Both the position numbers and the translations under genes were made by a program. The notes under the pieces were generated by a model that made no database searches, was not told where the DNA came from, and saw only the letters and a list, made by a program, of their open reading frames with translations. Shown here piece after piece: positions 13,535 through 60,000 of a stretch of 64,000 nt of DNA (the stretch's first letter is position 1; every line of letters begins with the position of its first letter). This DNA comes from Lytechinus variegatus (Eukaryota; Echinodermata; Echinoidea; Temnopleuroida; Toxopneustidae): contig NC_054755.1 of NCBI RefSeq assembly GCF_018143015.1, forward strand, positions 12,564,124 through 12,628,123. Reading direction: 5' to 3'.

Positions 13535-16500
13535 ATGCCTGCTGCAGTTAAAGACTCGCCAAACAAGGTCTTTGTGAGCAACATTCCTAAGACATGGGAC
13601 GATGCGAAATTAGAATCATTATTTGTCAAGTTCGGCAAAATATCCCAAGGTAAGAATGAACAATACTAAAGCAAATGGTCTGTTTCTGTCCATGACATAT
13701 AGACACTTAATCATACGTTTTAAGTGTGCCTCAGCAAACAGGTTTATTTTCTGGAAGGTTCGATTTAGCTTTTCATGAAGTCCAGACATATTCCAATATA
13801 AGTACCTTGCATTAGAACACCTCGGCTTTGTCTTAAAACAGGTTGCGACATTTTCCAAATTAATCTAAATTCCTTAATCGCAAATAGACTTATGAGATCG
13901 ATCTTGGTTTTAGTTTAATTTCCAAATTGAGTTTAATATTTCAAATTGATCTACATTCCTTAATCCCAAATAGACTTTTGAGATCGATCTTAGTTTTATT
14001 TTTAGTCTGATTTCAATCTATCGCTGCTGTATCGCAACTCTTTGTAAGACATGCCCCATTTCTCACATTGATTATATGATTATACATATTGATGTGAATT
14101 AGCTTTCCGCTACATCCATGTTTATCCATATTTCCTTGTTTCAGACCAGGGGTGTGTTTCATAACAAATCTGCAATGACAGTTTAAAGCTACTGAAATCA
14201 TTTGATTTTATTGGCTGATAATAAACTTGTGCATTTGATATTATATTGAGTCTTCATGAAACTGGACCCTGATGAAAGTTTTAAAGTTTTATCTCTACGT
14301 CTAATCTCTTGCAAAGTAGAGATCTGTATGCATTGACTGTCTGACATGCAGGAAGAGTTAAGTGTATTTATCAATCTTTCAATTGTTTCCTTATCAGTAA
14401 ACTTGATGAAACACAGAGAGACCGGAGAATCTAGAGGATTTGGCTTCATCACATATGAAAGCGAGGAGGATGCAAATGATGCTATACAGGGAATGAATGG
14501 AAAGGTAAGGTCAAAGGTCATAAAGAAACTAACTCTTGGTGATCATGTATTTGTATTCTTCAAATTTGAAATATTTATAAAGTTAGATTAAGAATTATGA
14601 CATGGATGCTTTACATATCTGAGATCGATTTGAATCTTTGCAAATGTAAGATGAGCTCCAGACTAGAGATTCCACTCTCCACCAATTTGTACTGGTGAAA
14701 AGTTTACACTGGGACTCTGGTGAATTTGCCCCCAATGTTGCTCTAAAGAGCCCTTAAAAAGTTTATGATTAAGCAAATTTGGTCTGGTACGCTAAAAAGT
14801 AGCCTGTAAAAGAAGTAAATGAACTTTATATCATATGTGTAATAGTACCATTGCTGTATGTGAGAACATTTTGTAACAGGTGCTTATGTCTGCTAGATTA
14901 AGAATTATTGTATTGAAGATTTGCTTAGCTGAGATTTATAGGATCAGTCATTCAAAGCTACTTGAAGTGGTCATGTCGATATGTCAACTTTTCCTCTTTT
15001 TTCTGGGGGCATACTTTATCAACTGTGTGTTATTATAAGTACTGTATGTTTTTATGATGTTTTTATCTTATCATATTAGACACATGCCAACGAAAAAAGT
15101 TGAAAATACTATTTTACACCCCATTCCTTTCTATTTTTTTGCATCCTCAAAATACTGCAATTCTTTTGACAATGATGACATCCCTCAAGATGGTCTCCAG
15201 ATTTCCACCACTCTTCAAGATGAATGACCTGTAATATTAGTATACCTCGTTTGATTCTATTTTTTCCCCATGTAGGATATTGAAGGAGTGGAGCTGAAAG
15301 TAGATGCTGCCCTCAAGTCTCTACACTCAGGAGGAGGAGCCGGTGGTGAAAGGGGAGGCAGAGGGGGCTTCAGAGGAAGAGGAGGCCCAAGGTACGTCAC
15401 TGGTTTTAATAAGCAAGTTCAGGGGTACTTCTTTGGCTAGTTTTCAAAAAAAAATCTTTCGTTTCCTTTTAGGACATGCAGTTGTCCCTACCTACAATGA
15501 ACTTTCCTTCTTTTAGGATTCTTCTTTTAGGACATGCAGTTGTCCCATCCTATAAATTACATTTCCTTTCTTTTGTTACAAGTTGTCCCTACCTACCAAT
15601 GACCTTTCCTATCTTTTAGGACATGCAGTTGTCCCTACCTACAAATGAGCTTTCCTATCTTTTCGGACATGTAGTTGTCCCTACTTTTCATCACAGTGGC
15701 GATTGCTACTGTCTACAAACATGATAATTTTGTTTGTCCTGTTTTGTTCAAACTTCCTTTTTATGTGCTCAAATTTTCATTTATATTATAACAACTTTTC
15801 ATGTTTTGTGGACTTTCTTTCAAAGTTAGCCTGGTCTTCCTTCTTCACGATATGTTTTTTTATGTTTTTATTACAGAGGAAGGGGAGGACCTCTTCTGCG
15901 TGGGGGTCCAATGGGGGGCGGGTTCTCCCCAAGAGGCGGACCAAGGGGTGGCTTCATGCCAAGGGGGCGTGGCGGCCCATTCAGAGGAGGTATGGGAGGT
16001 GAAGAAGGAGGAAGTCGAGGGCGTGGTCGATTTGATGGACCACCACGAGGCGGACCACCTAGGGGCGGACCAAGGGGTGGTATGAGAGGGTCACCAAGGG
16101 GTGCGCCTAGAGGAGCACCCAGGGGGGCACCAAGGGGACGAGGTGGGCCAGGAAGGTGAGTCAAATTTACATGTCTTTTTTTTTTCATGCTTTGACTACA
16201 AGCACAGTTTAGTTGTAGATATTTGCCAATTAGATGCGAATTGCAGGTCATCCAGCCTGCCATGGCACAAACTCCCTCAACAACAAAAATAACACACTTT
16301 TCAGAATACCAGGCCAGAGGATTGAGAATTGTAAAAAAGTCGTCTGCACTGACTCTTGTCACTCTACCCTGAATCCTGTCTGAAGATTTGGTCAAGGGCC
16401 AATGGTATAAAATACAATTGATCATTATCTAACATGCCTTACAATACTTGGTAATCATTTAATCTTTTCAACTGCCGATTCTCTCTGAAATTGCAAATAC

Positions 16501-32230: not shown

Positions 32231-35200
32231 AGTTTTCCTAAAGGTTTATAAAGTAATATTTTTGTCATTTAATAAAAAGGTTAATGTTTACATCTGGTTC
32301 TTTTTAAGTTGAAATTCAGGAATGGGGATTTTCATTTTGAAATTCTCTCTGATTGCAAAATGTTCTGACCAGTCCTATTCCTGATAGTTTTTGTTCATTT
32401 AGCATACAGCTGTTGAAGTGATAAAAAAAAGAAACATGTTTCAAAATGAATTACAGGTTTGTAAAAGGGTTATACAAAAAGCAAAAAAGGCATTTGTATA
32501 GGTGACACAAAAAGCAAAAAGGTATTTGTAAAAGTGGAACAAAAAGCATTGCTGCCCTTAAGCTGTTTGTAAGTTCAGCAAAACTTTAACAAGTTGATGA
32601 AAATGTTTTAGGGTACCATGTTCCACTTATTTTTATTCCCATTAACTAAAGTTTAAATCTGATCTTTAAAAAAAAATCAAAAGCATTGAAAGAAAGCCAA
32701 TTTGGGGAAATTAATTCAGTCATTAAGCTTTCTCAACACTTGATGATATAAACTGCCTTAAAAAGAGAGAGAGAGATAAATGTTTAAAGATTTTACACTA
32801 CAAGACTTGTGCAGGCTCATGGATAAAAAAGACAGACTGGTTACATGAACCCCCCCCCCCCCCCTTCCAAACAGCACATGTCTATGAATGCAAAAAATTT
32901 CTTTGTAATTTTCTTGTAAGAAAAAAAAATTCTTAAAAGACTAAAATGAAAAATCTTGATCATCATAGATTATTCAAATTTTTTGCAATAATCATATTTA
33001 TCTTCATGATTGCCTCACTACTTGTACTGAAAAAAAAAGTGTGGGGAAAAACTTTGAAAGTCATGAAAGAAAATCTATTTTTTTTTTTGCTGTAATCTTT
33101 TTATAATATATGAGCAAACAGCAAAAACTGAAAGAAAAAAACGCTTGTACAATATGTCGTCATTTGGGTTCCAAAGCTTCACATTTAAGCTCCACAGATT
33201 TGCACATATTTGCAACGTTGTTTATATAACCCAACTCCAATAATTCAGAAGCCGGAGTGTTTACCGACGAAGAAATGTCAATGAGTGTGTTTATGAAATG
33301 TACAAAAGGCAAGTATTTACCTGAAGAGGAGAAAAATGATCACAGAAGGTGAAGTTACATCATCACTCAAGATTACTGATGCAAGAAATTCCGACAAGAT
33401 AATTCAAGAAGAAAAAAAAAGAAATTCAAGAATGGTGGTGAGTATGAAATAGAGAAAGAGAGGGAATAAAATATTCAAGCTCTCTTATTTTCAGAAAAAA
33501 ATATAACACAGGAAACACGCTGAAAACTTCAATTCACATGAAATAAATGAAGTTATTTTCAGCAAAATCTGCACACAATAATCTGGGGCAAATAAAATTG
33601 ATTGAATAGTTTCTATGATGAAACTATTTTCCTAAAAATGTATTGAATTATCTAGAATACTTCAAAAAGAGCAAATGTACATATAAGTTGCTTAATATAT
33701 TTGAAAAAAAAACAAAATTTTACCCAGTGTAAATGATATTGTGAACTGTGTATTTATGTGGAATATCTGAATCTAAGAAGTCTTAAAATTAGTGTAAATT
33801 TTCATAAAATGTCATTTCATTATAGGGGAACAATATATCAAACGTATGGGTAAACAAAGTAACATTTAAATTATGTTTGAAGCACATGGGTTATGGGATT
33901 TAAAAGTTTGCTATTATAGCATAAAATCAAACAGCAGACTCATGAATACTTGTGCATGACTGTGCAAACTTTAAATAGCTCTAGAAAACAAATTGACTTG
34001 ATGTTGCATGTACATGTTAATAATCCTGTACCACTTGAAGGAGGAAATCAAATGTTAACAAAACTATATTTTTCAAAATATAAAAGTTGTTTATACATCT
34101 GGGACTTACATGTAATCTAAGTGGGTATCAAATGTAGCGCAACAAGATACTTCATTTTGACATTTAGCTTGCCATTTGCATAAAATACTTGTACCGTCTT
34201 CAAAGAGACATGTACACTCATGTACATTGTGAAGTGTGTAGGAGTGCAAATATTGACCTGAATTGACCTTTTAGTTGAAGTTGAAAGGTGTAGCCATTTT
34301 CCTTTCAGAATAAAAATGAAGAGTAAGACATGGCTACAATTATACAGACCAAAATTTATCATTCTTCAAGTAAATGGTAACAAAGAAACATCATCATTGG
34401 GGAGAAAAAAAGATGTGTAAACTAAACTTATCATCTAAATGCCAAATGTACATGTAAATTTAGCTTTCTGTTTTTAATCAATCTAGACAAGGAAAAGTGT
34501 GTTGGTTGTGCATTATAAGCATAAAGGTAAATTTAAAAAAAAATTTTTATCAATTTACAAAGAAATGAAAGGAGGGAAATATACAATGGTGTTTCACTAC
34601 TTATTGTAATTATTATTTTCATATATCAGATAGAGATACTTTGAACTCAATGTATCGTAATAAATATATTTTGTTTGCTAACAATGTGTAGAGTAGAGTG
34701 AAAGTTTCCCACTCACTTTTCAAAATGTAAGATAGAAATGTAACACTTCAAGCTTGGTAACAGTTTAAGCCAAAAAGAAATCTCTAAAAGACCCCTCCCT
34801 TTCATGAAATAGAGAATAGAAGATGTTAATTACTGCAGAACATTTTTTTTGAAAAATCACGCTGGGAAATGTGATCTCTAAGAGACAATTTACGGAACAT
34901 GTCAAAATGAAGACATCGGGGCTTGACTGGTCCCATTGGAACCCAGTTTAATTTGCTCAGAACAGATGCACCGAAGAAAATGTAATGAGGCATCTAAACT
35001 GGTTTAGATTAAATAAATTTCATTATTCATATGAGAATATTCCCTTTATATTAATTTTTGAAACTAAAATGACCAAGCTCGAACTATGGATTATGGAAAA
35101 GTGATGTGCATGCAGAATTTCTCAATTTTCTTGATTTTATTGTCCTGTAGCATCATATTATTGTACCATTTGGGGCAGGATGACATATTTGATATCAACT

Positions 35201-35977
35201 TTGCCTTTTGTACAAGTCTTTCCAGTTTCATTTCACTCTAAGCTTGAAACATCATATCGTGAAAATTTAATATTGAAATTTATTACTTCTTATGCAGTTC
35301 AGATTTTCATTCATTCTATTAGTGTGCAGGGATCCGTTCAGTCGAACGCCATCTGAACATGGTTAATGAAAATAACCTATGATGACCCACAACTACTAAA
35401 ATGAGAGTACCGATTTCAATATCTGAAACCCCTTCTATTGACAACCGAGAACAGCCTTGTACAAAGACATACTGAAGCCTGTTAATTTTTGAAATCATTA
35501 CATGGCTACATAAGGAACATTTGAACATGAGTTCCATTTTGAGTTTGATTTTTTGGCTTGCCTTCATTTCTTGTCTTGTCCTATATGCTGCACAATGTCT
35601 TTGTTCAAAGTTGTTCTGCACCTTGTACTGCTGTACTAACATGCATCTTTATTCTGTTTTATTTCGATGATTGAATTTAGGATGACTTGCAGCTGTGGTG
35701 TCATTTGAAAGTGGTACAACATTCACTGCTGCCCTGGTGTAGCAGGTTGTCACGTGACCAGTCACCTGACTACCATTGCAAGTCACATGACTGGATAGCA
35801 GCTGATCTCTAACAGAGAAAGACGACAGAAGAAGGTAAGTGTTCAGAACTTTCAATGAAGTGCATTCCACAGTGTTTACTTGACAACCCCACCCTCCAAC
35901 TCCTACGCAATCAGTGATTTGCCACCTAAATGCCCTACACCAAGACTTATGATCAGAGAAGCTCTAAGTACTCTGCT
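32231..35977. other. AT-rich non-coding stretch
   Basis: No gene is supported. The only notable site is the palindrome GTCACGTGAC at 35749-35758 (E-box of the CLEAR/USF kind), followed 25 bases later by AGTCACATGACT. A C run lies at 32850-32864. Confidence 0.4.
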
Positions 35978-36470
35978 TACACACGCTAAAATTTCCTTAA
36001 CCCCGTACTATAGGTGGGGCTAAATTGCCATTTAGCCCCACTTATAGTACGGGGTTAAGCTTAGCCCACTTTCTTTTTACACAGCATTTTTGCAAAGTGG
36101 GCTAACCCCACCTTTAGTACGGGATTATTTGGCCCTGCAAAAAAGCAGGGTTATCCCAGCAATTGCGGTGCTAAGAGCAATAGTACGGGGTTAAGATCGC
36201 TAGTGTAAAACGAAAGTGGGCTAAGCTTAACCCCGTACTATAGGTGGGGCTAAATGGCAAGTACGAGTGAAGTACTTGTACTACGAATGATCGACAAAAA
36301 CCACTAGTCCGGGGTTAGCGAGTTTCTTGTGTGAATAGCAAGCATTCCTTATCCGTGAATAGCAATAACAGTTTGGCATGTGTGAAGAGGAAAAAAATGG
36401 TACGGGTTAAGGATAGTACAGGGTTAGCAATAGTCCGGGGCTAAGAAAATCCTGTGTAAAAAGGGTATAA
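35978..36470. mobile_element. Palindromic mosaic element (CCCCGTACTATAGGTGGGGCTAA)
   Basis: The outer ends ACACGCTAAAATTTCCTTAACCCCG and (inverse) CCGGGGCTAAGAAAATCCTGTGTAAAA define a ~490-bp element. Inside, TTAACCCCGTACTATAGGTG and its inverse recur, including an almost perfect 65-bp hairpin at 35997-36058 and another copy at 36229-36252. Degenerate forms (AGTACGGGATTA, AGTCCGGGGTTAG, AGTACAGGGTTAG) fill the rest. Confidence 0.6.
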
Positions 36471-36951
36471 GTATTGCAAATCTTTTGGCACCAGGTTTTT
36501 GAAAATCAGAAGAGGAGTCACAAAATCATGGCTCAAATTTTGGCTGATGAGGTATAAAAAGTAGCAGGTGAAATGGTTGATTGTCTAACTGGGATAATGA
36601 TCATTAAATGAATTTTAAAAGATAATTAAATGGGATCCTAAATGGTTGTTTGATTACAAATCATTTACCAAATGATTTGGTTAGAAAATAAGCAATCGTG
36701 AGTTTACAGTGTTAGATACTTTTGGTTATGTTTACAAGCTATAATCAATACAGGTGCTCTTATCTGTGTTGGCGATTTCCATCTTTCTCAGTTTTCAATT
36801 AGTTTTCATTTCACATAGGGTATGTTTCAACAATGACAGTCCATATGTAGATTAATAGTTCATCTTCATTCGAGAGACTTTCTAAATTATTGCTCTCGGC
36901 GACATCTGGAGTTTGGCTTAAATTCATTTTAATATATTTTCTTTGCTTCAG

Positions 36952-37178
36952 TTTGCTGCTGGTTTTGCCAAGGTTCCTGTGGCTCCTGGAGGAATTGGCA
37001 CCTACGATGAACAAACCTCGGAAGACTAGGATGATGCCACTGCTCAAACTGCTGCAGCACCCAGCGAGAACTATTTTGTTTCTGACCTTCGGAAGTCTGG
37101 GCTGTTGCTAATGCCAATGCAGTACCCGCTGCTGCTCCTCGAACTGGTGCCACTTCTTATGACCGGACCATTATGTAA
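36952..37178 (+). pseudogene. Ala/Pro-rich terminal-exon-like remnant, unidentified
   Basis: After a good acceptor (TTTTCTTTGCTTCAG) the frame encodes AGFAKVPVAPGGIGTYDEQ before a stop at 37027-37029. The same frame continues with an Ala/Ser-rich stretch (ATAQTAAAPSENYFV). A different frame then encodes EVWAVANANAVPAAAPRTGA and ends at TAA 37176-37178. An AATAAA follows at about 37272. The matching composition across frames suggests one decayed coding sequence (a stop and a frame change), or a real terminal exon ending at 37029 whose upstream exons I cannot find. The source protein is not recognised. Confidence 0.3.
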
Positions 37179-37499
37179 AACTGGAAAGTTGATGTATTGC
37201 ATTTAAAATTGACATATCAATTTATTGATTTGTTGATGGAAGAAAGGAAGTGTAAAAAAATGTTTCTTTAATAATAAAGCAAGTTGGAAATTTAAATTGA
37301 TCTGTCCAAGCTTCTATAATTTGAATCGTGTCCAAGTAACCTTCCCCATCTCGGCAGCTGTTAGGCAGTGGTTTTATGCTGAGCCGAGTAGATGTTACCA
37401 CAAATTCCTCTGCTTACCTGAAAGCCACAGCCGAAGGGTGTGGAGGAAGGGGGGGGGGGGCTTTAGATGTAATGGTGATGGTTATAGTAATAGTGGCGG

Positions 37500-38061
37500 T
37501 GACTGATGACAATCATAGTGATGATGGTCGTATTGATAGTAGTAATGGTGGTCATGATGATAGTGATGATGGTCATATTGATAGTAGTAATGGTGGTCAT
37601 GATGATAGTGATGATGGTCATATTGATAGTAGTAATGGTGGTCATGATGATAGTGATGATGGTCGTATTGATAGTAGTAATGGTGGTCATGATGATAGTG
37701 ATAATGGGTCATATTGATAGTAGTAATGGTGGTCATGATGATAGTGATAATGGGTCATATTGATAGTAGTAATGGTGGTCATGATGATAGTGATAATGGG
37801 TCATATTGATAGTAGTAATGGTGGTCATGATGATAGTGATGATGGTCATATTGATAGTAGTAATGGTGGTCATGATGATAGTGATGATGGTCATATTGAT
37901 AGTAGTAATGGTGGTCATGATGATAGTGATAATGGGTCATATTGATAGTAGTAATGGTGGTCATGATGATAGTGATGATGGTCGTATTGATAGTAGTAAT
38001 GGTGGTCATGATGATAGTGATAATGGGTCATATTGATAGTAGTAATGGTGGTCATGATGAT
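37500..38061. repeat. 45-bp minisatellite, block 1 (~12 units)
   Basis: Unit: GATGATAGTGATGATGGTCA then TATTGATAGTAGTAATGGTGGTCAT (45 bp). A 46-bp variant (GATAATGGGTCATATTG) recurs several times and shifts the reading frame, so long open frames across the array are not evidence of coding. Confidence 0.95.
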
Positions 38062-38453
38062 GCCTGCGAAGACCACTCCATCACCTCCAGCCGTCCCTTT
38101 TCTCCGGGCACTCACCTCTGCATTGGTGGCCCGTACCACCGTGCGGACGGCCTCCGGTGAGAATACAGTGTCAGTGGCGGTTTCCATTTGGTTTTCTTCA
38201 CTTGCAAAATTAGCCATAACAGGCTAAATTCACAAATTACAGTTCTAGAACTGGGCTCAGAACTTGTAAAATTAGTATACAAATAAGCACTCTAACGCTA
38301 TCCTCCTGTAGAGTGCGAAAAGCGCAAAATTCTTCCAAAAATAACTGAGGAAAAAATGACTGCCCGTGGTCAGTCGAACATGCACAAGGCTCACTGATGT
38401 GCGCATGCGCAGCTCGTATCTCATATAATCCCGTAACTTGGAGTTACGAGATA
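38062..38453 (-). other. Unidentified 0.39-kb insert in the minisatellite
   Basis: This non-repetitive segment interrupts the array. On the minus strand it contains a perfect NRF1-type palindrome (TGCGCATGCGCA, about 38398-38411) and, about 190 bp on, an ATG (38215-38217). The ATG opens MANFASEENQMETATD, runs through VFSPEAVRTVVRATNAE and meets a donor-like GAG|GTGAGT. That is the layout of a promoter plus a first exon, but no continuation is visible and the frame runs straight into the array. It may be a captured gene end or part of a mobile element. No family is recognised. Confidence 0.4.
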
Positions 38454-39316
38454 AAATAGTGATGATGGTCATATTGATAGTAGTAATGGTGGTCATGATA
38501 ATAGTGATGATGGTCATATTGATAGTAGTAATGGTGGTCATGATGATAGTGATGATGGTCGTATTGATAGTAGTAATGGTGGTCATGATGATAGTGATGA
38601 TGGTCATATTGATAGTAGTAATGGTGGTCATGATGATAGTGATGATGGTCATATTGATAGTAGTAATGGTGGTCATGATGATAGTGATGATGGTCATATT
38701 GATAGTAGTAATGGTGGTCATGATGATAGTGATGATGGTCATATTGATAGTAGTAATGGTGGTCATGATGATAGTGATGATGGTCGTATTGATAGTAGTA
38801 ATGGTGGTCATGATGATAGTGATAATGGGTCATATTGATAGTAGTAATGGTGGTCATGATGATAGTGATAATGGGTCATATTGATAGTAGTAATGGTGGT
38901 CATGATGATAGTGATGATGGTCGTATTGATAGTAGTAATGGTGGTCATGATAATAGTGATGATGGTCATATTGATAGTAGTAATGTTGGTCATGATAATA
39001 GTGATGATGGTCGTATTGATAGTAGTAATGGTGGTCATGATAATAGTGATGATGGTCGTATTGATAGTAGTAATGGTGGTCATGATGATAGTGATGATGG
39101 TCATATTGATAGTAGTAATGGTGGTCATGATGATAGTGATGATGGTCATATTGATAGTAGTAATGGTGGTCATGATGATAGTGATGATGGTCGTATTGAT
39201 AGTAGTAATGGTGGTCATGATAATAGTGATGATGGTCATATTGATAGTAGTAATGGTGGTCATGATGATAGTGATGATGGTCGTATTGATAGTAGTAATG
39301 GTGGTCATGATGATTA
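38454..39316. repeat. 45-bp minisatellite, block 2 (~19 units)
   Basis: Same unit as block 1, with sub-variants GGTCGTATTG, CATGATAATAGTG and AATGTTGGTCAT scattered through it. The 46-bp variant appears twice in succession near 38820-38880. Confidence 0.95.
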
Positions 39317-39612
39317 TGTGGAGCGTTGTGGCCCAGTGGATTAGTCTCCGGACTTTGAAACAGAGGGTCGTGGGTTCAAATCCCAGCCATGGCGTAGTTT
39401 CCTTCAGCAAGAAATTTATCCACATTGTGCTGCACTCAACCCAGGTGAGGTAAATGGGTACCTGGCAGGAATTTATTCCTTGAAATGCCATCGCGCTGTA
39501 AAAAGGCTGCGAGGCTAAAGCCAGGGTAATAATATCCAAGTCCTTTGGAAGCGCATAGAGACGTTATCCATAATGTGTTATGCGCTATACAAGAACTGTC
39601 TATTATTATTAT
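39317..39612 (+). mobile_element. Full-length tRNA-derived SINE inserted in the minisatellite
   Basis: The tRNA-like head has an A box TGGCCCAGTGG (39329-39339) and a B box GGTTCAAATCC (39373-39383). The body includes TTCCTTCAGCAAGAAATTTA, CACTCAACCCAGGTGAGGTA and a GCGCATAGAGACGTTATCC...GCGCTATACAAGAACTG tail ending in TATTATTATTATTATAG. The same 45-bp repeat resumes immediately after, so it transposed into an existing array. Partial copies occur at 25060-25185, 52255-52430 and 53055-53125. Confidence 0.85.
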
Positions 39613-40085
39613 TATAGTGATGATGGTCATATTGATAGTAGTAATGTTGGTCATGATGATAGTGATGATGGTCATATTGATAGTAGTAATGTTGGTCATG
39701 ATAATAGTGATGATGGTCATATTGATAGTAGTAATGGTGGTCATGATGATAGTGATGATGGTCGTATTGATAGTAGTAATGGTGGTCATGATGATAGTGA
39801 TGATGGTCGTATTGATAGTAGTAATGGTGGTCATGATGATAGTGATGTTGGTCATATTGATAGTAGTAATGGTGGTCATGATGATAGTGATGATGGTCAT
39901 ATTGATAGTAGTAATGGTGGTCATGATGATAGTGATAATGGGTCATACTGATAGTAGTAATGGTGGTCATGATGATAGTGATGATGGTCATATTGATAGT
40001 AGTAATGGTGGACATGATGATAGTGATGATGGTCATTTTGATAGTAGTAATGGTGGTCATGATGATAGTGATGATGGTAGTCATG
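39613..40085. repeat. 45-bp minisatellite, block 3 (~10 units)
   Basis: The array continues after the SINE with the same unit, including AATGTTGGTCAT and GATGTTGGTCAT variants and one 46-bp unit near 39930. It decays into GATGATGGTAGTCATGATAG at its right end. Confidence 0.95.
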
Positions 40086-40379
40086 ATAGAGATGATAGTG
40101 GGGATGGTTGTAGTGAAAGTGTGGTGACTGTGTTGATGATAGTCATGATGGTAGCAATGGGTGATTCCATGCTGTGTCACAAGACAACATTGACATGACA
40201 AAAGATTGTTTGATGGTCATCTTTGAGTGTTACAAGAAGGGGAACGAGAACCAATATTACATATCTTTTGCATTTGAAAGGAAAAAGGTAGTGTTGTATG
40301 GGACACAAAAAATATCAGTGAAAACATCAAAAGCATGGAATCACCTTAATGGTGTTGATGATAACAGTCTGTGGTAATA

Positions 40380-40666
40380 GTGATGATATTGATAGTGACT
40401 GATGATAATGGTCATGGTGGTGGTGAGGATGGTAGTGATGATGATGATGGTGGTGATGATGATGATGGTAGTGGTGGTGGTGATGATGATGGTGGTGGTG
40501 ATGATGATGATGATGGTAGTGGTGGTGGTGGTGATGATGATGGTGATGATGGTCATGATGATGATGATGATGGTTATGATGATGATGATGATGGTTATGA
40601 TGATGATGATGGTTATGGTGATTGATGATGATGATGATGATGATGATGGTCATGATGATGATTGTC

Positions 40667-40699
<33 letters not shown>

Positions 40700-40890
40700 G
40701 TCATGATGATGATGATGATGGTTATGATGATGATGATGGTTATGGTGATTGATGATGATGATGATGATGATGGTCATGATGATGATTGTCATGATGATGA
40801 TGATGATGATGATGATGATGGTTATGATGATGATGATGGTCATGATGGTGGTGGTTATGATGGTGGTGGTGGTGGTGGTGGTGATGGATG
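40380..40890. repeat. GAT/GGT microsatellite with ~120-bp higher-order copy
   Basis: Trinucleotide-rich DNA of GATGATGGT type. A block containing GGTTATGGTGATTGATGATG and GGTCATGATGATGATTGTCATG appears twice, near 40610-40680 and 40735-40800. Frames through it (poly-Asp, poly-Met, poly-His) are compositional. Confidence 0.9.
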
Positions 40891-41770
40891 AATAAGTGAG
40901 TAAATGAATGAATGTAAGTAAATAAATGAATAAATTAAATGGAATGAGGTAAAATAAGAATATAGCTTCTGGATTTTGAGTTAACTGTTGCAAAATTAAA
41001 TTTTCATTTTAAAGAGGTCAATTGTTTTGCTCACAACTATTCTAATATATTCCCCATATACCAAGGCATGCCCTTCAAATTCTAAAAATCTATACAGTAA
41101 TGCTTTGACTATTTCAAATTGATGAGATCTCATGTCTACAAAATCGTCTAGACGTTTTCAACAGCGATCATTCAAGTTTTACTGACATTTGCTTTTCAAA
41201 TATTCAACTTTACTTTTATTTTCCCGAATATTTAACTTGACCTTTTGTTATTTGCTCATCAGTCGATGGACTATAAAGGACCCAATCTTGAGATTTTCAT
41301 AATTCTTGAATAGAATCCACTTAAAAGTAAAGGATGGTGGAACAGGGGGCAAGGAACGAGTGCCCCTATAAGTAGCAAAAAAAAAAAATGAGGGAGAGGA
41401 AGAAAGAAGACTTGTGAAACTTTATGTCTGTTATTCAATCAGGAAAAAATAAATTAAGTCACATATAGGTTGTCCTGCCATCCCCCCCCTTGATCAAAAT
41501 ATTATTTCATTATGGCACCACCGCCCCTTCAATATGTTAAAACAGTAGCATAGTTCAAAACATATTTGCTTATCGATCGGGGGCTCGAAAATATTCAAAA
41601 GCTTGCTCTCTTCATCCTGCTGAAGACTATTTCACTGGGCTGATCAGTTTTGGAAAGGACATTTTCATCAGGATCGTTTGTGAGCCAGCATCATAACCTG
41701 GAATTCCTCTGACAGATCGAGTGATTAGTCTGATACCAGTTCGCTACTGGGGGAGTTACGGCTACTGACC
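40891..41770 (+). other. Upstream region of the polyglycine gene
   Basis: No gene is seen. A TATA-like ACTATAAAGGA occurs at about 41269 and CCTATAAGTAG at 41364; either might serve the gene starting at 41771, but spacing to the ATG allows no decision. Confidence 0.25.
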
Positions 41771-44700
41771 ATGGCTCGGTGGCTTCTTGCGAGTGTGGTC
41801 ATCATTGCCACAGTGTGGAGGTGTACCCAGGCACTCCCCATTTCAAAACTTGAGCAGGTATGTATCAATGACCTCTCTCTTTTCTCTTCTACCGTGCTAT
41901 ATCACAAGTACTCACAGTGGCATTTCAAGGAAAATTGGCACCGGGACAAGCGAGCAAATTGCGCCACTTCTAACTTGAAAGGGGTACCCCAGGATGAAAG
42001 AGTAAAATGAAAACGAGCAAAACGCAGACAATTAAATCGCAGTCCAAAAGGAAATAAAGTTATTGAATTCTAATAGTTTGGCATTAAAGGACAGGTTCAC
42101 CCCAACAAAAAATTAATTTGAAGAAAAAGAGAAAAATCCAACAAGCACAACACTGAAACTTTCATCAAGATCAGATGTAAAAGAAGAAAGTTAATGACAT
42201 TTTTAAGTTTCGCTTATTTCACGAAACAGTATATGCACTTCCTGATGGTGATGATGTCATCCACTCACTATTTCTTTTATTGTACAAATATTCTAATTTT
42301 CTCCTCACTGTCAAGTGAAAAGACAATTCCTCCCTGAGCATGTGGAATAAGCATTGTTTAATACTTTATGGTTCAGTCAAGTTAGTCTTTATGTCAAATC
42401 TGTAAAAAGTGAAATATTGTAAAATTGAAACAATAAAAAAAAGCAAATAGCGAGTGAGGGACATCATCGACTGTCTCATTTGCATGCCACTGAAATGTGC
42501 ATATAACTGTTTTGTAAAAATAAGCAAAACTTAAAAATGTCATATCTTTCTTATTTTACATCCGAATTTGATGAAATTTTGATGAATGAGTGAGGCATAT
42601 TGTTTGATGTTTATTTTATATTTATGCATTATATTCATGATATTGGCTATAATTGACTAATGCAACATTTGTTTGCTTGGTGAATGATAAATTTGAAATT
42701 TTCATTCATGTACCAAGAATAAAAAAAATGACAATTTTAACTTTGATATCAGCCCATCAATAAACTAATATCTAGAAGAGTATTATAAATCTTTCTAACT
42801 TAAACTTGGATCTTTCAAAACATAATAAAGATAGATAAAACCTATTGGGTTGTATTTTTAGAGCCATGCATTAGTTAACCCTATGTTAACCTGAATGACT
42901 ATAGACCACATGTTTATAAAGTGCCCATTGCTAACTCATTCACAAAGTAGAGATTATTCTAATCCAGTGGCGAAAAGTTGCCCCAAAATTCAATTTGTTG
43001 TGAAATGAGAAGAGTAAACTATGAAGAAACAACTAATTTGATAAATTATTGGGTATATTATCTTGGTGATGAATATGAAAGTAAGTTGAAACGTAGCATT
43101 CCATTTAAATATTGACCAAAGTTCTTGTACAATCTAAGTTTAAATCCAGGTCTATTCAAGACCACCAACTCTAGCATGGGTCCTTTTGGTGAATTCAATC
43201 CTAAAATTGATTTTGATCACCTTTAGGAACTAAACATCATTTGCATCTGTATGCCACTTATATTAAAGTTCTTGAAGATGACAAAAGTGCAAAGCAGAGT
43301 TTTGTTTAAATTATGAACACTCACATCTTCAGTGCAGTGGTAATTATGGATTACAGACTAATTACATGCCATAAATTTCCTTTTTGATATCATTAGACAG
43401 GGGAGGCTGACAGCAAAGAACTAGTGAATGGCATCATCACTCAAGACGCCGCAGCGAAAGAGAATGCCCATGATCTTGCTGTGGTGAAAGGTATCCAAAA
43501 AGAAACGGACCAAAACTACATCGATCTGGCCTACGGGTTCGACTACGATGATGAGTTTGATGATTTTGGGAATGACGCCGAAGACGAGGAGAAAGGTGCT
43601 CTAATTGCTCGCCTCTTCCAGCTCAGGGGTAGAGGAAGAGGTAGAGGAAAGCCAAAGCCAAAACCAAAACCAAAACCCTGTTCAGACTGCAATAAACCTT
43701 GTCCTGGAAATGGTGGAGGAGGCGGCGGCGGAGGAGGAGGTGGTGGTGGTGGAGGCGGTGGAGGTGGAGGCGGCGGAGGAGGCGGTGGAGGAGGAGGATA
43801 TAAACCTAAGCCTAAACCAAAACCAGGAAATGGTGGCGGTGGGGGTGGAGGAGGCGGAGGAGGAGGCGGTGGGGGAGGAGGAGGTGGAGGTGGTGGCGGT
43901 GGAGGATACAAACCTAAGCCTAAACCAAAACCAGGTAATGGTGGCGGTGGGGGTGGAGGAGGCGGAGGAGGAGGCGGTGGGGGAGGAGGAGGAGGAGGAG
44001 GTGGTGGCGGTGGAGGATACAAACCTAAGCCTAAACCAAAGCCAGGTAATGGTGGCGGTGGAGGAGGGGGAGGAGGAGGAGGTGGCGGTGGAGGAGGAGG
44101 CGGTGGTGGAGGATATAAACCAAAGCCAAAACCAAAACCAGGTAATGGTGGAGGTGGCGGTGGAGGAGGGGGTGGTGGCGGAGGTGGTGGAGGCGGCGGA
44201 GGTGGCGGTGGAGGATATAAACCTAAGCCTAAACCAAAACCAGGTAATGGTGGCGGTGGGGGTGGAGGAGGCGGTGGGGGAGGAGGAGGTGGTGGTGGTG
44301 GTGGAGGAGGAGGCGGTGGAGGAGGAGGATACAAACCTAAGCCTAAACCAAAACCAGGAAATGGTGGGGGTGGAGGTGGTGGAGGTGGCGGCGGAGGAGG
44401 AGGAGGTGGTGGAGGTGGTGGCGGAGGAGGAGGATATAAACCTAAGCCTAAACCAAAACCAGGTAATGGTGGCGGTGGGGGTGGAGGAGGCGGAGGAGGT
44501 GGCGGTGGGGGAGGAGGAGGAGGAGGAGGCGGTGGAGGAGGAGGATACAAACCTAAGCCTAAACCAAAACCAGGTAATGGTGGCGGTGGAGGTGGCGGAG
44601 GAGGAGGCGGTGGAGGTGGTGGGGGAGGAGGCGGTGGAGGTGGTGGGGGAGGAGGAGGTGGTGGTGGAGGATATAAACCGAAGCCCAAACCAAAACCAGG

Positions 44701-44875
44701 TTATGGTGGCGGTGGAGGAGGGGGAGGAGGTGGCGGTGGAGGAGGAGGTGGCGGTGGAGGAGGAGGCGGTGGAGGTGGTGGTGGAGGGGGAGGAGGAGGG
44801 GGCTATAATTGGCAAAAGTATGTTGGATCATACTACAAAAAAGAAGACAATGCTCTTGCAGAAAAGGAAGCATAA
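41771..44875 (+). CDS. Secreted polyglycine / (Lys-Pro) repeat protein, 521 aa
   Basis: Exon 1 is 41771-41857, ending CAG|GTATGT. Exon 2 is 43397-44875, after CATTAG. Both join in phase 0. Residues 1-22 are a signal peptide (LLASVVIIATVW core, likely cut TQA|LP). Next come an acidic region (DDEFDDFGNDAEDEEK), a basic hinge (RGRGRGRGKPKPKPKPKP) and a Cys cluster CSDCNKPC. Then come ten pure Gly blocks of 29, 25, 26, 21, 23, 27, 24, 26, 31 and 33 residues, separated by nine linkers YKPKPKPKPGN (the last PGY). The tail is YNWQKYVGSYYKKEDNALAEKEA. Gly is about half the protein. All four GGN codons are mixed, so this is not a slipped triplet run. Function unknown; secretion, Gly/Lys/Tyr content and repeats suggest a structural, adhesive or mineral-matrix protein (inference). 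Start: the ATG in ACCATGG context. Confidence 0.85.
42089..42575. mobile_element. Second copy of the 9466 MITE family (intron of the polyglycine gene)
   Basis: The left arm starts TAAAGGACAGGTTCACCCCA. The inverted right arm contains GAGTGAGGGACATCATCGAC and CTTATTTTACATCCGAATTTG. The expected outer end of the right arm is missing. It occupies about a third of the 1.5-kb intron; the rest (42576-43396) shows nothing notable. Confidence 0.7.
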
Positions 44876-46291
44876 ATGAAACAAATTGTTAACCATTTTC
44901 AGCACATTGGGGGCAATCATGCATTAACTAAAATAGAATATTATTTCAGATTAAAGTAAATATTACCTTCTGAGATACTGAAATAGATTATTAAGAAATC
45001 AACTAACAATATCTATTTATTCTATTTGTGCATTTAATTTAAAAAAAGTTGTGAAACCAACTGGCTTTGAAGAATTAAGTGTTTGATATGTATTTCACAA
45101 ATAACATGGTAGAACACAACAAATATCTTATAATTTAGAAACATTCCCAGCATGCACTGTCCATGCATTACCTACAATTGTTTCTGATAGACCATTTTCC
45201 TAGTTAAGTCATGGCAAGGTACAAGGAAGTTAGACATAAAGCAATGAGGATTGACTTTCATACGAATTATATAGACTTTATATATTGTTGACATCTTGCA
45301 GATTCATGAATATGAGATTTTGTGTTCTCATTTTCGATTGTGCAGTTGTGATTAAAAGTTAGTGAACCCAGCCCCACAAAATGCACTGAATGTAGACAAC
45401 AACACTACAATGTTCGGCGAGCCTAGAGGAACAAACTTTGTTCAATGTGATACTTTATCATCGGACTTCTTCGCAATTAAATATCTATAACACGGCAGAA
45501 CATGAACACTTTAAATATGTTCATTTTCTGAAGGGGTTCAAAACTTTTGTGCACCACTGCATATGATTCCCCCATCCCAATGTTCGTCCTAACAACAGGG
45601 CCTATTTCCAAGGAGTCATTGGCCCGTATTCTGAAGTCGGGTTTAACTTAAACTCAGGTTTAGAGTTGTGGTTTAAGTATGGGAAGCCAAAAGTATCATT
45701 TTTTAAAATTAAGTTGTATGTTTCTTATTCATCGATGGTGAAGACAATAATCTTTTTATACTTCCTAGACAATTATGAATGATTTGAGAGCAAAATGAGC
45801 TGAAGTATGATATCTCTACTGTTAGTAATTTGTGTAACAATCGGCTCGCCATACTTAAACCACAACTTTAAACCCGAGTTCAAGTTAAACCCGACTTCAG
45901 AATACGGGCCAGTATGTCTACATACCCCCCACCCCTCCCCCATAGAACTGTCACTTTCTTACAATCTGAATCAATGATTATTTCAAATAATTCCTTTGAT
46001 TTTGATATTTTGTTTTCATGTCGCAATGATTTTGTCAAATGTACAATGTGAGGAAATGATTTAATGTTACTAGTGGATATACAAAAAAATTAAAATATTA
46101 TTCAATGGTGCTTTGATGACTTGCAATTATTTTCATAAGTTTTATTTTTCTCTCCTGTCAATAGAAAATGTAACAAATTGCTATTTTTCTATTTCCTGAT
46201 GAAAAAAATCTGTTCTTCAACTAACTGCTGTTTCAATGATTGTACATGTATTTCATTTATAAATTGCTTTGATTTGAAATTGTGAAATAAA
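44876..46291 (+). other. 3' UTR of the polyglycine gene with poly(A) signal
   Basis: Non-coding after the stop. The first good AATAAA in suitable AT-rich context is at 46286-46291 (TGTGAAATAAACATTTTTAA). A MITE lies inside this stretch. Confidence 0.4.
45621..45910. mobile_element. MITE with GGCCCGTATTCTGAAGTCGG ends
   Basis: Terminal inverted repeats of about 60 bp (GGCCCGTATTCTGAAGTCGG then GTTTAACTTAAACTC, and the inverse at the right) enclose a non-coding AT-rich centre. Confidence 0.75.
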
Positions 46292-57000: not shown

Positions 57001-60000
57001 GTGTGTAGATATCTTGCACCGATGCTGAATCCAGGTCAATGGCATGGAATCCATTCACTGACCCATAGATGACCTTTAACCTCTGGTTGTCCTCCACAGT
57101 CAGATCAACAATCAATGGACGATGAACAAGGTTGGGGAAAGACTACAACAAAATTTTAAAAAACAGAACAAAGTTTAAGGAATCTTTTCTTTAATAATGT
57201 CATAGACTGATTCAGTTTGGGTGCTGTTTTTTTTTGTGATTTCTAAACTTGTGGTACATTTCAGGAACCCAGGTGGGTGTTTCATAAAGCTGTTCGTAAG
57301 TACGACTGGTGATCCTTCCTTGTGGTAAATGGTATATTGACTCGGTGATGGTTTAGCGCGTAAGAAGGGTTCACCAGTCGTTCTTAAAGTCGCTCGTAAC
57401 TTACGAACAGCTTTATGAAACGGCTCCCAGGCGAAGATCTCAGTAGTCCCCCCCCCCTTCCCACCCGGTACACCGGTACAGTTAAGGTTAAAGAGAGACG
57501 AAATGTAAAAGGTTCCCCTACCTTGAAGGCCATGAACTTGTGGTACGGTTTGGGAGCCCAGGCGTAGATCTCGATACTGTCTTTGAGGGCGATCACCAAG
57601 AACTTGATCTTCTCGTACTTGATGATCTTGTAATGGATGCAACCTTCAAGATCACCGACGGCAAGGAAACCACTCTTTCTCTTATCCATGGTCTGCTGCT
57701 GCTGCTTGAAGAGAAGTGGTTGGAGACAAAATGAAAGGAGTCTTTTAAATATACAAATATTGTATATATATATATATATATATATATAAGCAAAATGATG
57801 ATGTTCATCTTAAATTACAAAACTTACCCAATATACATATTTTAAATGTATATCCTTCAAGTCATAACTGTTTTAGGGCATATACTTTCATATATTCTGG
57901 CAATGCATTAAATTATACCTGCACTTTTGGGAGGGTTACAAATTATTAATAGGTTTTCATATGACTGCTTGTGATGTTAACCAATGAGTACAAATGTATA
58001 GTAGGCCTATATCCCAGGGTCCTGTACAATTTTTTTTTTTTCAACTAAATTAAATGACATATAAAATACACAGAACTGGAGGCTGTTCTGTGAGGTATAA
58101 GGGACTTTTCCCCATAGCTTTATGAATGACTCGCATCTTTTTTACTCACACTCAATGTAGCCTCTCCGTCGTTCCTCACTATCTTCTGTTTCAGCCATGA
58201 GAGGAAGTATGTCCGTAGCTTATTCTTCTTCCCTGGAAAGACAATCAGAAAAAACAAACCCTGCATGCATCATTTTAATTTCTAAAATACAGAATTCTTA
58301 GCAGGTGGATAGAATCAATCGTATCAATACACTGCAAAAGGATGAGATGTTCAGGCTAATTCAAGTGACATGCTGTACTGCCAGCAATTAATCAGAATGC
58401 TCAGTAGTGAACATATTCTACATTTTGGCCATTGAACACCTTACGATCGGTCAGCGACTCGATTTTGGTATAAAACGTGGTAACACTTGATGCGATATTG
58501 AAACATGGAACATCTTACTGTTTAAAGACCTATATCATTGTAAGAATACTTATGTTCAAATCTGCGACTTTGCTACCATCGTTATAAGAATAAAAGCAAA
58601 TCTAATACCTAGTCGTAATGACTTCATAGCAGTTATACGATCGGCTACAATCTGAAACCAATCTAGCCTTTACTAAAAAGTAAAGGCTTTCAATCATCCA
58701 AAATTGCTATCTTAGTATTCTTACAGTTTATTTGAACCTCAAATTAAAGTATTTTTTTCATTCATTTTTTCAGAAAACAAGCAAAATGCATTTCTTTTCC
58801 AAAATCTGATTGTAGACTAGTCATAAGGTGTGCGGAGGCCTTTAACTACATGTATACCATTGTTAAATTGTTATTTTTTACAACTCAAAAAGCCAACAGT
58901 AAAAACCTTTTCCAAGGCTTCAGAGTATAGAAAGGAAATGTTTACCTGCTATACACACTAGGATGTTCTGACTCTCCAGGACATCCATCTGTTGGAAGCG
59001 TTTTCTTGAGATTAGAGGATAAACCTTGCCTTCTCCTGATCTATCTAGTAACATTAAACCATTGTCTGTTCCAATTAATAGGTTCACGCCTGAATGGAGA
59101 AAGAGAGAGTGATAGCAGAATTAAGCAAAAATGCCAGCTGTAGGAATAATCTAAAAAATTGAACAGAATCCAATGAAATTACCAACCAAGTAATAATAAC
59201 AAAAGAAAGGAAAATCTAATACAAAATGTGTAATTGCAGATAAATGGAGAAAATAAGCATGGCATTTCAAGCCAGGTGTCTAGACTTTTGAAGTAATAAT
59301 AATACACTCTCCTGCAATTGTGTTGGTAATTATTTTTTGGCTTAACTTTCATGATTCCATAGAATTAGGTTTATGCAAATGAACCAGAACTAGATATCCA
59401 GTAATCTGGTGACAATTAACCTTGATTTTAAAGACTTTCTCATGAAATCATTGTTTGCTACAACTACAGGTATTTAGCTATCCACCATTTAAACTGTTAT
59501 CAATGGTAACATCAATCATATGCAGCCTACCATAGAATTGAATTACTATTCAACACCCTTGAGATTTGGTAAAAGGATATAGAAATACAAAATATTCAGT
59601 GAAAATGACTTGTTTTCCTCAGTAACTATCCATATGAATCAACATGAGTAGTACTTGGAGCTTGATTTTTAATTCCACACATATTCTTCTTCATAACAAA
59701 CAAAAAAATGAAATCGAATTGAAACTTTCAGTTTTCTTTATTTATTTGACCAATTTACACTACCATACTCACCCCATAATGAAGCACAGAGTATTTCTGA
59801 GTTAAATTTCTTCCTGTACTTTCTAATTTCTGGCATGTCGTTAAGACTCTCGGGCGTTGTTGGTTTTACGTTGACCGAGATGTTGGATCCGCGACGATTT
59901 GGTGGCGATGGTACGCTCGGTGTCGTTGGACTTGCCCCAAAGCCGAATGCTGAAAAAGATGTCTGCTTCCGCATTGGGGTCTTTGGACCACTGCCTGTGC

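Follow-up and report, generated by a model that had tools for sequence, protein, structure and literature searches.

A stretch of 64,000 nucleotides from the sea urchin Lytechinus variegatus (assembly GCF_018143015.1, contig NC_054755.1, positions 12,564,124 to 12,628,123), here called the window, was analysed for a gene that probably encodes a secreted, extremely glycine-rich protein. Positions are counted from the first letter of the window. In the gene model, two exons on the + strand (41771-44875) are joined across a phase-0 intron to give 521 residues (43.8 kDa), with 54.9% Gly, 10.0% Lys, 8.4% Pro and 3.3% Tyr and an isoelectric point (pI) of 9.85. The region 43712-44803 is composed solely of ten Gly blocks (265 Gly) and nine linkers of 11 residues each, and Tyr opens every linker as well as the C-terminal tail (Table 1). 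A first-pass annotation of this DNA had described this layout, and its coordinates, frame, splice sites and unit counts proved correct, the splice being that of a gene model. The ten Gly blocks are 21-33 residues long, and eight of the nine linkers read YKPKPKPKPGN, the last being YKPKPKPKPGY.

Table 1. Features of the predicted polyglycine gene, in window positions
Feature	Position	Strand	Remarks
TATAAA, possible core promoter	41272-41277	+	Pattern match; sole one from 41001 to the start codon
Exon 1	41771-41857	+	87 bases; ACCATGG start context, leader MARWLLASVVIIATVWRCTQA, then LPISKLEQ; donor CAG/GTATGT
Intron	41858-43396	+	1539 bases, phase 0, GTATGT...TTTTTGATATCATTAG; predicted from sequence
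Exon 2	43397-44875	+	492 codons and stop TAA; nearly entire mature protein
Acidic head, exon 2 part	43397-43624	+	From sequence; final 11 residues, KGALIARLFQL, not acidic
(Arg-Gly)4 then (Lys-Pro)5	43625-43678	+	From sequence
CSDCNKPCPGN	43679-43711	+	Three Cys, the only ones past the predicted leader
Gly block 1 (29)	43712-43798	+	
Linker 1	43799-43831	+	YKPKPKPKPGN
Gly block 2 (25)	43832-43906	+	
Linker 2	43907-43939	+	YKPKPKPKPGN
Gly block 3 (26)	43940-44017	+	
Linker 3	44018-44050	+	YKPKPKPKPGN
Gly block 4 (21)	44051-44113	+	
Linker 4	44114-44146	+	YKPKPKPKPGN
Gly block 5 (23)	44147-44215	+	
Linker 5	44216-44248	+	YKPKPKPKPGN
Gly block 6 (27)	44249-44329	+	
Linker 6	44330-44362	+	YKPKPKPKPGN
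Gly block 7 (24)	44363-44434	+	
Linker 7	44435-44467	+	YKPKPKPKPGN
Gly block 8 (26)	44468-44545	+	
Linker 8	44546-44578	+	YKPKPKPKPGN
Gly block 9 (31)	44579-44671	+	
Linker 9	44672-44704	+	YKPKPKPKPGY; sole amino-acid change among linkers
Gly block 10 (33)	44705-44803	+	
C-terminal tail and stop	44804-44875	+	YNWQKYVGSYYKKEDNALAEKEA; Tyr-rich; hydrophilic by eye
ATTAAA, possible variant poly(A) signal	44950-44955	+	Pattern match; 75 bases past the stop; no AATAAA in 44876-46200

The frame of exon 2 contains no Met codon, so an upstream coding exon is required. We scanned 35000-43390 for start codons with a phase-0 donor (at least 6 of 7) lying 15-60 codons downstream, and obtained eight candidates: the ATG at 41771 and seven starts at 39265-39316 that use one common donor at 39444. 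The exon at 41771 has the start-codon context CTGACCATGG, encodes MARWLLASVVIIATVWRCTQALPISKLEQ, and joins in phase 0 to the acceptor TTTTTGATATCATTAG/ACAGGG; the 10-residue hydropathy peak of its leader is 2.75. By the -3/-1 rule, rather than by a prediction tool, signal cleavage would fall after TQA. We preferred the 41771 exon for its position outside the repeat and its complete ACCATGG context. The alternatives, which sit in or just past a 45-base minisatellite, appear less likely, although at 39277 and 39298 the base at -3 is likewise a purine and that at +4 a G.

The minisatellite occupies 37515-39314 (about 40 copies, 79% matches) and 39614-40078 (10.3 copies, 96%). Several of its reading frames are open, on the + and the - strand alike, and one + frame reads as DDGHIDSSNGGHDDS-like repeats. 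A TGA trinucleotide run of about 160 units (78% matches) lies at 40381-40862, 0.9 kb before the start codon.

The first-pass annotation had also relied on the frame being open over the whole array. The frame is indeed open, but we rejected this as proof of coding because no reading frame of a GGN run, forward or reverse, can contain a stop. Three more long frames are open there (424 residues on the + strand, 385 and 381 on the - strand), and the other two + frames of exon 2 contain 4 and 36 stops. The nine linkers differ by at least seven synonymous changes and one amino-acid change. With 21 of the 99 possible single-base changes in the linker codons being synonymous, this excess has a binomial P of 1.3e-4. 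Between linkers only GGN codons occur, and their third base takes all four letters (GGA 122, GGT 85, GGC 42, GGG 16). This mixture, in which no single codon runs for more than six in a row, rules out a plain triplet expansion. The earlier suggestion that the protein is what has been maintained is thus supported at the level of sequence, and the locus is probably a protein-coding gene with a secreted product.

The array might instead be kept as nucleic acid that folds into G-quadruplexes, whether in DNA or in RNA, the protein being a side effect. The (GGN)n coding strand does suggest quadruplex potential by its base pattern, and invariant GG pairs alone would fit this explanation too. However, quadruplexes need no exact one-base loops, and the linkers are A-rich and conserved at the protein level, seven of their eight changes being synonymous. 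A leader exon with an ACCATGG start and phase-0 splice sites also argues against it, and we regard this explanation as exceedingly improbable.

GGT GGC GGT opens seven of the ten blocks, and the first eight codons are common to blocks 2, 3, 6 and 8. Aligned as third-base strings, blocks 2 and 3 have 24 equal positions, one mismatch and one gap (z 8.4 against 200 shuffles), and blocks 3 and 8 have 22 equal positions and four mismatches. Tandem Repeats Finder detected a higher-order unit with a period of 111 (8.7 copies, score 1081). A spanning tree over the ten blocks gave 41 third-position mismatches and 38 gapped codons; this total was not relied on because many of its alignments were poor, with a shuffle z near 2 for several of the 12 pairs shown. 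Together with the common block openings, the well-aligned pairs support recent unit duplication with third-position drift; the first-pass annotation had already read recent duplication from the openings. No GGN run of at least 10 codons was found beyond the ten blocks on either strand of the 64 kb, and no KPKP codon run beyond this gene.

Recent duplication would also be expected of a gene or pseudogene of low complexity that is young, prone to slippage and little constrained, with the array as a coding minisatellite. The surroundings are highly repetitive, with the 45-base minisatellite and the TGA run 0.9-4.3 kb upstream of the start codon. In a survey of 22 proteomes, the sea urchin held the longest Gly repeat (PMC5125637), which makes long Gly runs in such animals less surprising and perhaps easily tolerated. 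Against this explanation, 265 Gly codons occur between linkers without any other residue or frame break, the linkers show a 7:1 synonymous excess, and a start codon and splice sites are present. A gene of this kind under little constraint thus seems very unlikely.

The predicted protein is strongly divided in charge. Residues 22-94, encoded from the last part of exon 1 up to base 43591, have a pI of 4.05 and a charge of about -16, while the C-terminal part that starts at (RG)4 (416 residues) has 67.3% Gly, a pI of 10.34 and a charge of about +45. The 'acidic/Cys region' of the first-pass annotation therefore needs dividing: both elements are present, but they are two separate things, an acidic head and a CSDCNKPC stretch that follows (RG)4(KP)5. 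The whole protein contains 17 Tyr, 17 Ala, one His and no RGD.

An acidic head before a cationic array could also suit a secreted antimicrobial or immune effector, in which a leader and an acidic pro-region precede a microbe-binding, Gly-rich mature part. Gly-rich antimicrobial peptides offer a parallel. The predicted coarse gene plan is that described for SpTransformer (Sp185/333), with two exons, the leader in the first, and repeats and a Gly-rich, disordered region in the second (PMC5491942). SpTransformer proteins are described as having a His-rich region and, in most members, RGD (PMC5491942), whereas the protein studied here has no RGD, no His-rich region and a single His. The intron is 1539 bases long, the 11-residue linkers are nearly invariant rather than mosaic, and the 64 kb contain no second GGN array or KPKP run. 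An immune role therefore appears distinctly unlikely.

Searches of protein families and structures returned no recognisable relative. Pfam reported no family at E of 1 or below, either for the 134-residue N-terminal part or for exon 2. In the PDB, 36 distinct sequences matched exon 2 at the same limit; by name, 28 of them were single-chain constructs of peptide, beta-2-microglobulin and major histocompatibility complex; the other eight included an LRP6/mTOR entry, the M3 receptor, the SK2 channel and fusion proteins. The best match was the LRP6/mTOR entry (E 0.00033, 26 residues at the array start). Judged by name, all 36 were taken for low-complexity Gly matches and rejected as relatives. The N-terminal part had three chance-level PDB matches (E 0.49 or worse), and no natural relative was recognised in the PDB for either part. 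Pattern matches in viral_contigs (7) and genome_contigs (95) confirmed no relative, as would be expected of an animal gene in collections that cover viruses, bacteria and archaea and are uninformative on animals. The earlier statement that no known family has this architecture thus agrees with Pfam and the PDB, a scope that excludes animal protein collections.

Among the literature matches listed, no description of this architecture was recognised by title and start of abstract, and those that link KPKPKP with glycine showed, on the same view, no such protein. Gly-rich silk-like proteins are already known as a kind, and orthologues of this one may be annotated under a generic name. An AlphaFold2 model of exon 2 alone, made with no alignment, had a mean predicted local distance difference test (pLDDT) score of 32.9 and a predicted template modelling score of 0.15. 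None of its 492 residues reached a pLDDT of 50, and two low-confidence helices were placed in the acidic head. The lack of a Pfam domain and of a confident fold fits a disordered structural protein.

Silk-like proteins share with the predicted protein a long Gly-rich region free of domains and, if the putative one is real, a leader; pure Gly homopolymer blocks and a nearly invariant (KP)4 linker set the latter apart. Typical silk-like members have GGX or GPGGX-like motifs. A SilkSlider survey, with an apparent threshold of 25% Gly in 80 residues, reported 53 silk-like sequences in S. purpuratus, and a lineage-specific origin is described as typical of such proteins (PMC4944945). Here Gly reaches 67.3% over 416 residues, and, as regards the signal peptide that SilkSlider seeks, hydropathy shows a hydrophobic leader that may be one. 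Polyglycine II nanodomains are reported in some spider silks (PMC7584646, PMC6168590).

Collagen has Gly-X-Y triplets, in place of which we found Gly homopolymer blocks and no Pfam family. DOPA (3,4-dihydroxyphenylalanine) adhesives, such as mussel foot proteins, are defined by Tyr modified to DOPA, and here 17 Tyr are present by sequence. We know of no homopolymer Gly blocks in Tick-GRP77, a glycine-rich protein of tick cement. This protein is described as condensing, gelling and adhering through spaced Arg and aromatic residues (PMC11794139). Both proteins are Gly-rich with periodic cationic and aromatic residues, the present one is probably disordered like Tick-GRP77, and Tick-GRP77 comes from a secreted adhesive; it is driven by Arg and aromatic residues, unlike the Lys-based array (PMC11794139).

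Taken together, these features point to an animal gene of two exons whose secreted, cationic product is mostly disordered and structural in role, a silk-like self-associating matrix or adhesive component, and we consider this modestly more probable than otherwise. The structural, adhesive or mineral-associated role suggested by the first-pass annotation would be consistent with these features. The chain could work as an alternating sticker-and-spacer polymer, with the Gly blocks as stickers and the cationic Lys-Pro/Tyr linkers as hydrated spacers. Polyglycine has a rise of 3.1 Å per residue, or about 8 nm per block, and pure Gly blocks would join chains through backbone hydrogen bonds, packed either as polyglycine II or in beta-like stacks. 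A chain in which Lys and Pro alternate should be stiff, extended and hydrated, and such positively charged, extended linkers would hold the protein soluble until assembly. They may also bind polyanions, including acidic matrix proteins, sulphated sugars and mineral surfaces. Tyr at each block end might provide cation-pi contacts or oxidative cross-links (DOPA or dityrosine), and the Cys cluster may link chains. Until the protein is secreted, or while this happens, its cationic array (about +45) may be shielded by the acidic head (about -16). Outside the cell a tough material would result, such as a gel, a fibre, an adhesive or a part of the skeletal matrix.

A more specific form of this self-associating matrix reading is tentative and could well be wrong. 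It holds that the protein is a natural multi-block copolymer, whose ten Gly blocks would cross-link a secreted material as polyglycine II while nearly invariant Tyr-(Lys-Pro)4 rods keep it soluble until it is deposited and cross-linked. In a mouse disease model, polyglycine is described as forming branched fibrils that coalesce into ribbons (PMC13383697). The disease polyglycine of NOTCH2NLC likewise has a long, uninterrupted, self-assembling Gly run; it arises from a GGC expansion and forms pathological nuclear inclusions, whereas a leader, charged linkers and mixed codons are found here (PMC13383697). If the copolymer reading is true, polyglycine, elsewhere a disease aggregate, would serve as a working structural element. 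If made and secreted, the protein would be a genetically encoded polymer in which Gly homopolymer and Lys-Pro blocks alternate. It could then provide a natural case of harmless cellular handling of long polyglycine, a simple template for adhesives or fibres that assemble themselves, and a chemically extreme addition to the Gly-rich matrix proteins that are specific to single animal lineages.

Within the matrix or adhesive reading, one special case is a biomineral matrix protein, in which the disordered cationic array in or around calcium carbonate steers crystal growth, like the repeat regions of spicule matrix proteins. The pearl-oyster protein KRMP-3 is described as having a Lys-rich region that controls crystals and CaCO3 growth and a Gly/Tyr region that binds chitin (PMC4498902). 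By that description the Lys-rich and Gly/Tyr-rich parts are alike, but KRMP-3 has two separate domains where ten alternating blocks occur here (PMC4498902). Shematrins were grouped with KRMP-3 among near systems by literature listing alone. The sea urchin proteins Sp-Hypp_2998 and Sp-Hypp_2999 are, like the present one, basic, Gly/Pro-rich, predicted to be disordered and without database match; they are described with 30% Gly and, at the C-terminus, a predicted transmembrane segment, against 54.9% Gly and a Tyr-rich tail, hydrophilic by eye, in the present protein (PMC2909932, PMC2527298).

Other observations argue against a mineral role. The C-type lectin-like domain of SM30 and SM50 is absent here, no Pfam family having been found at E of 1 or below. 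The tooth AP-rich group differs as well (PMC2614417), since only 17 of 521 residues are Ala, the Gly blocks are not acidic and no Pfam domain is present. We saw no Pro-X-Y repeats with Asn or Gln in this Gly-dominated protein and, by eye, no hydrophobic C-terminal segment. Eleven neighbouring stretches were scanned, and the two above the Pfam cut-off were RRM and CNH domains; this is not a known skeletal gene cluster. A mineral role is thus unlikely, if still conceivable as a special case.

Several points weigh against the secreted-matrix reading as a whole. Every step beyond 'encoded and probably secreted' is one that we infer from composition. For the leader exon, three of the seven alternative starts have higher hydropathy peaks (3.73-3.76) than 41771, the other four being lower. 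The linker count was taken as states minus one per column, with columns treated as independent. Blocks were defined as Gly runs, which makes 'all GGN' partly true by construction, yet only Gly residues occur between linkers and no frame break is seen over the 265 Gly codons. The two well-aligned block pairs (2-3 and 3-8) contain just five third-position mismatches, with (1/3)^5 = 0.004, and the third-base mixture may have been largely inherited by duplicating already mixed units. Low pLDDT is expected of a disordered protein and equally of a lone repetitive sequence, and a single-sequence AlphaFold2 model is silent on polyglycine II. The blocks, whose lengths vary from 21 to 33, may be tolerated slippage by-products rather than selected stickers, because long polyglycine aggregates in disease. 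Composition can also mislead: of the 53 sea urchin hits reported with SilkSlider, 12 were recognised or probable false positives, with an immune family among the causes (PMC4944945).

An RRM exon lies within 14361-14549 on the + strand (Pfam RRM_1, E 9.3e-12), and an RG-rich open stretch follows at 15830-16156; the region 14361-16156 is probably part of an RNA-binding protein gene, presumably of hnRNP G/RBMX type. On the - strand, a CNH-domain exon within 57387-57809 (E 1.6e-7), which had no PDB match at E 0.01, probably belongs to a kinase or related gene, which we take to resemble MAP4K4/TNIK. The dispersed repeats of the window also look sea-urchin-like. Just 3' of the polyglycine gene, 45615-45915 contains two inverted near-copies of a stretch including CGTATTCTGAAGTCGGGTTTAACTT, by eye a small inverted-repeat element.

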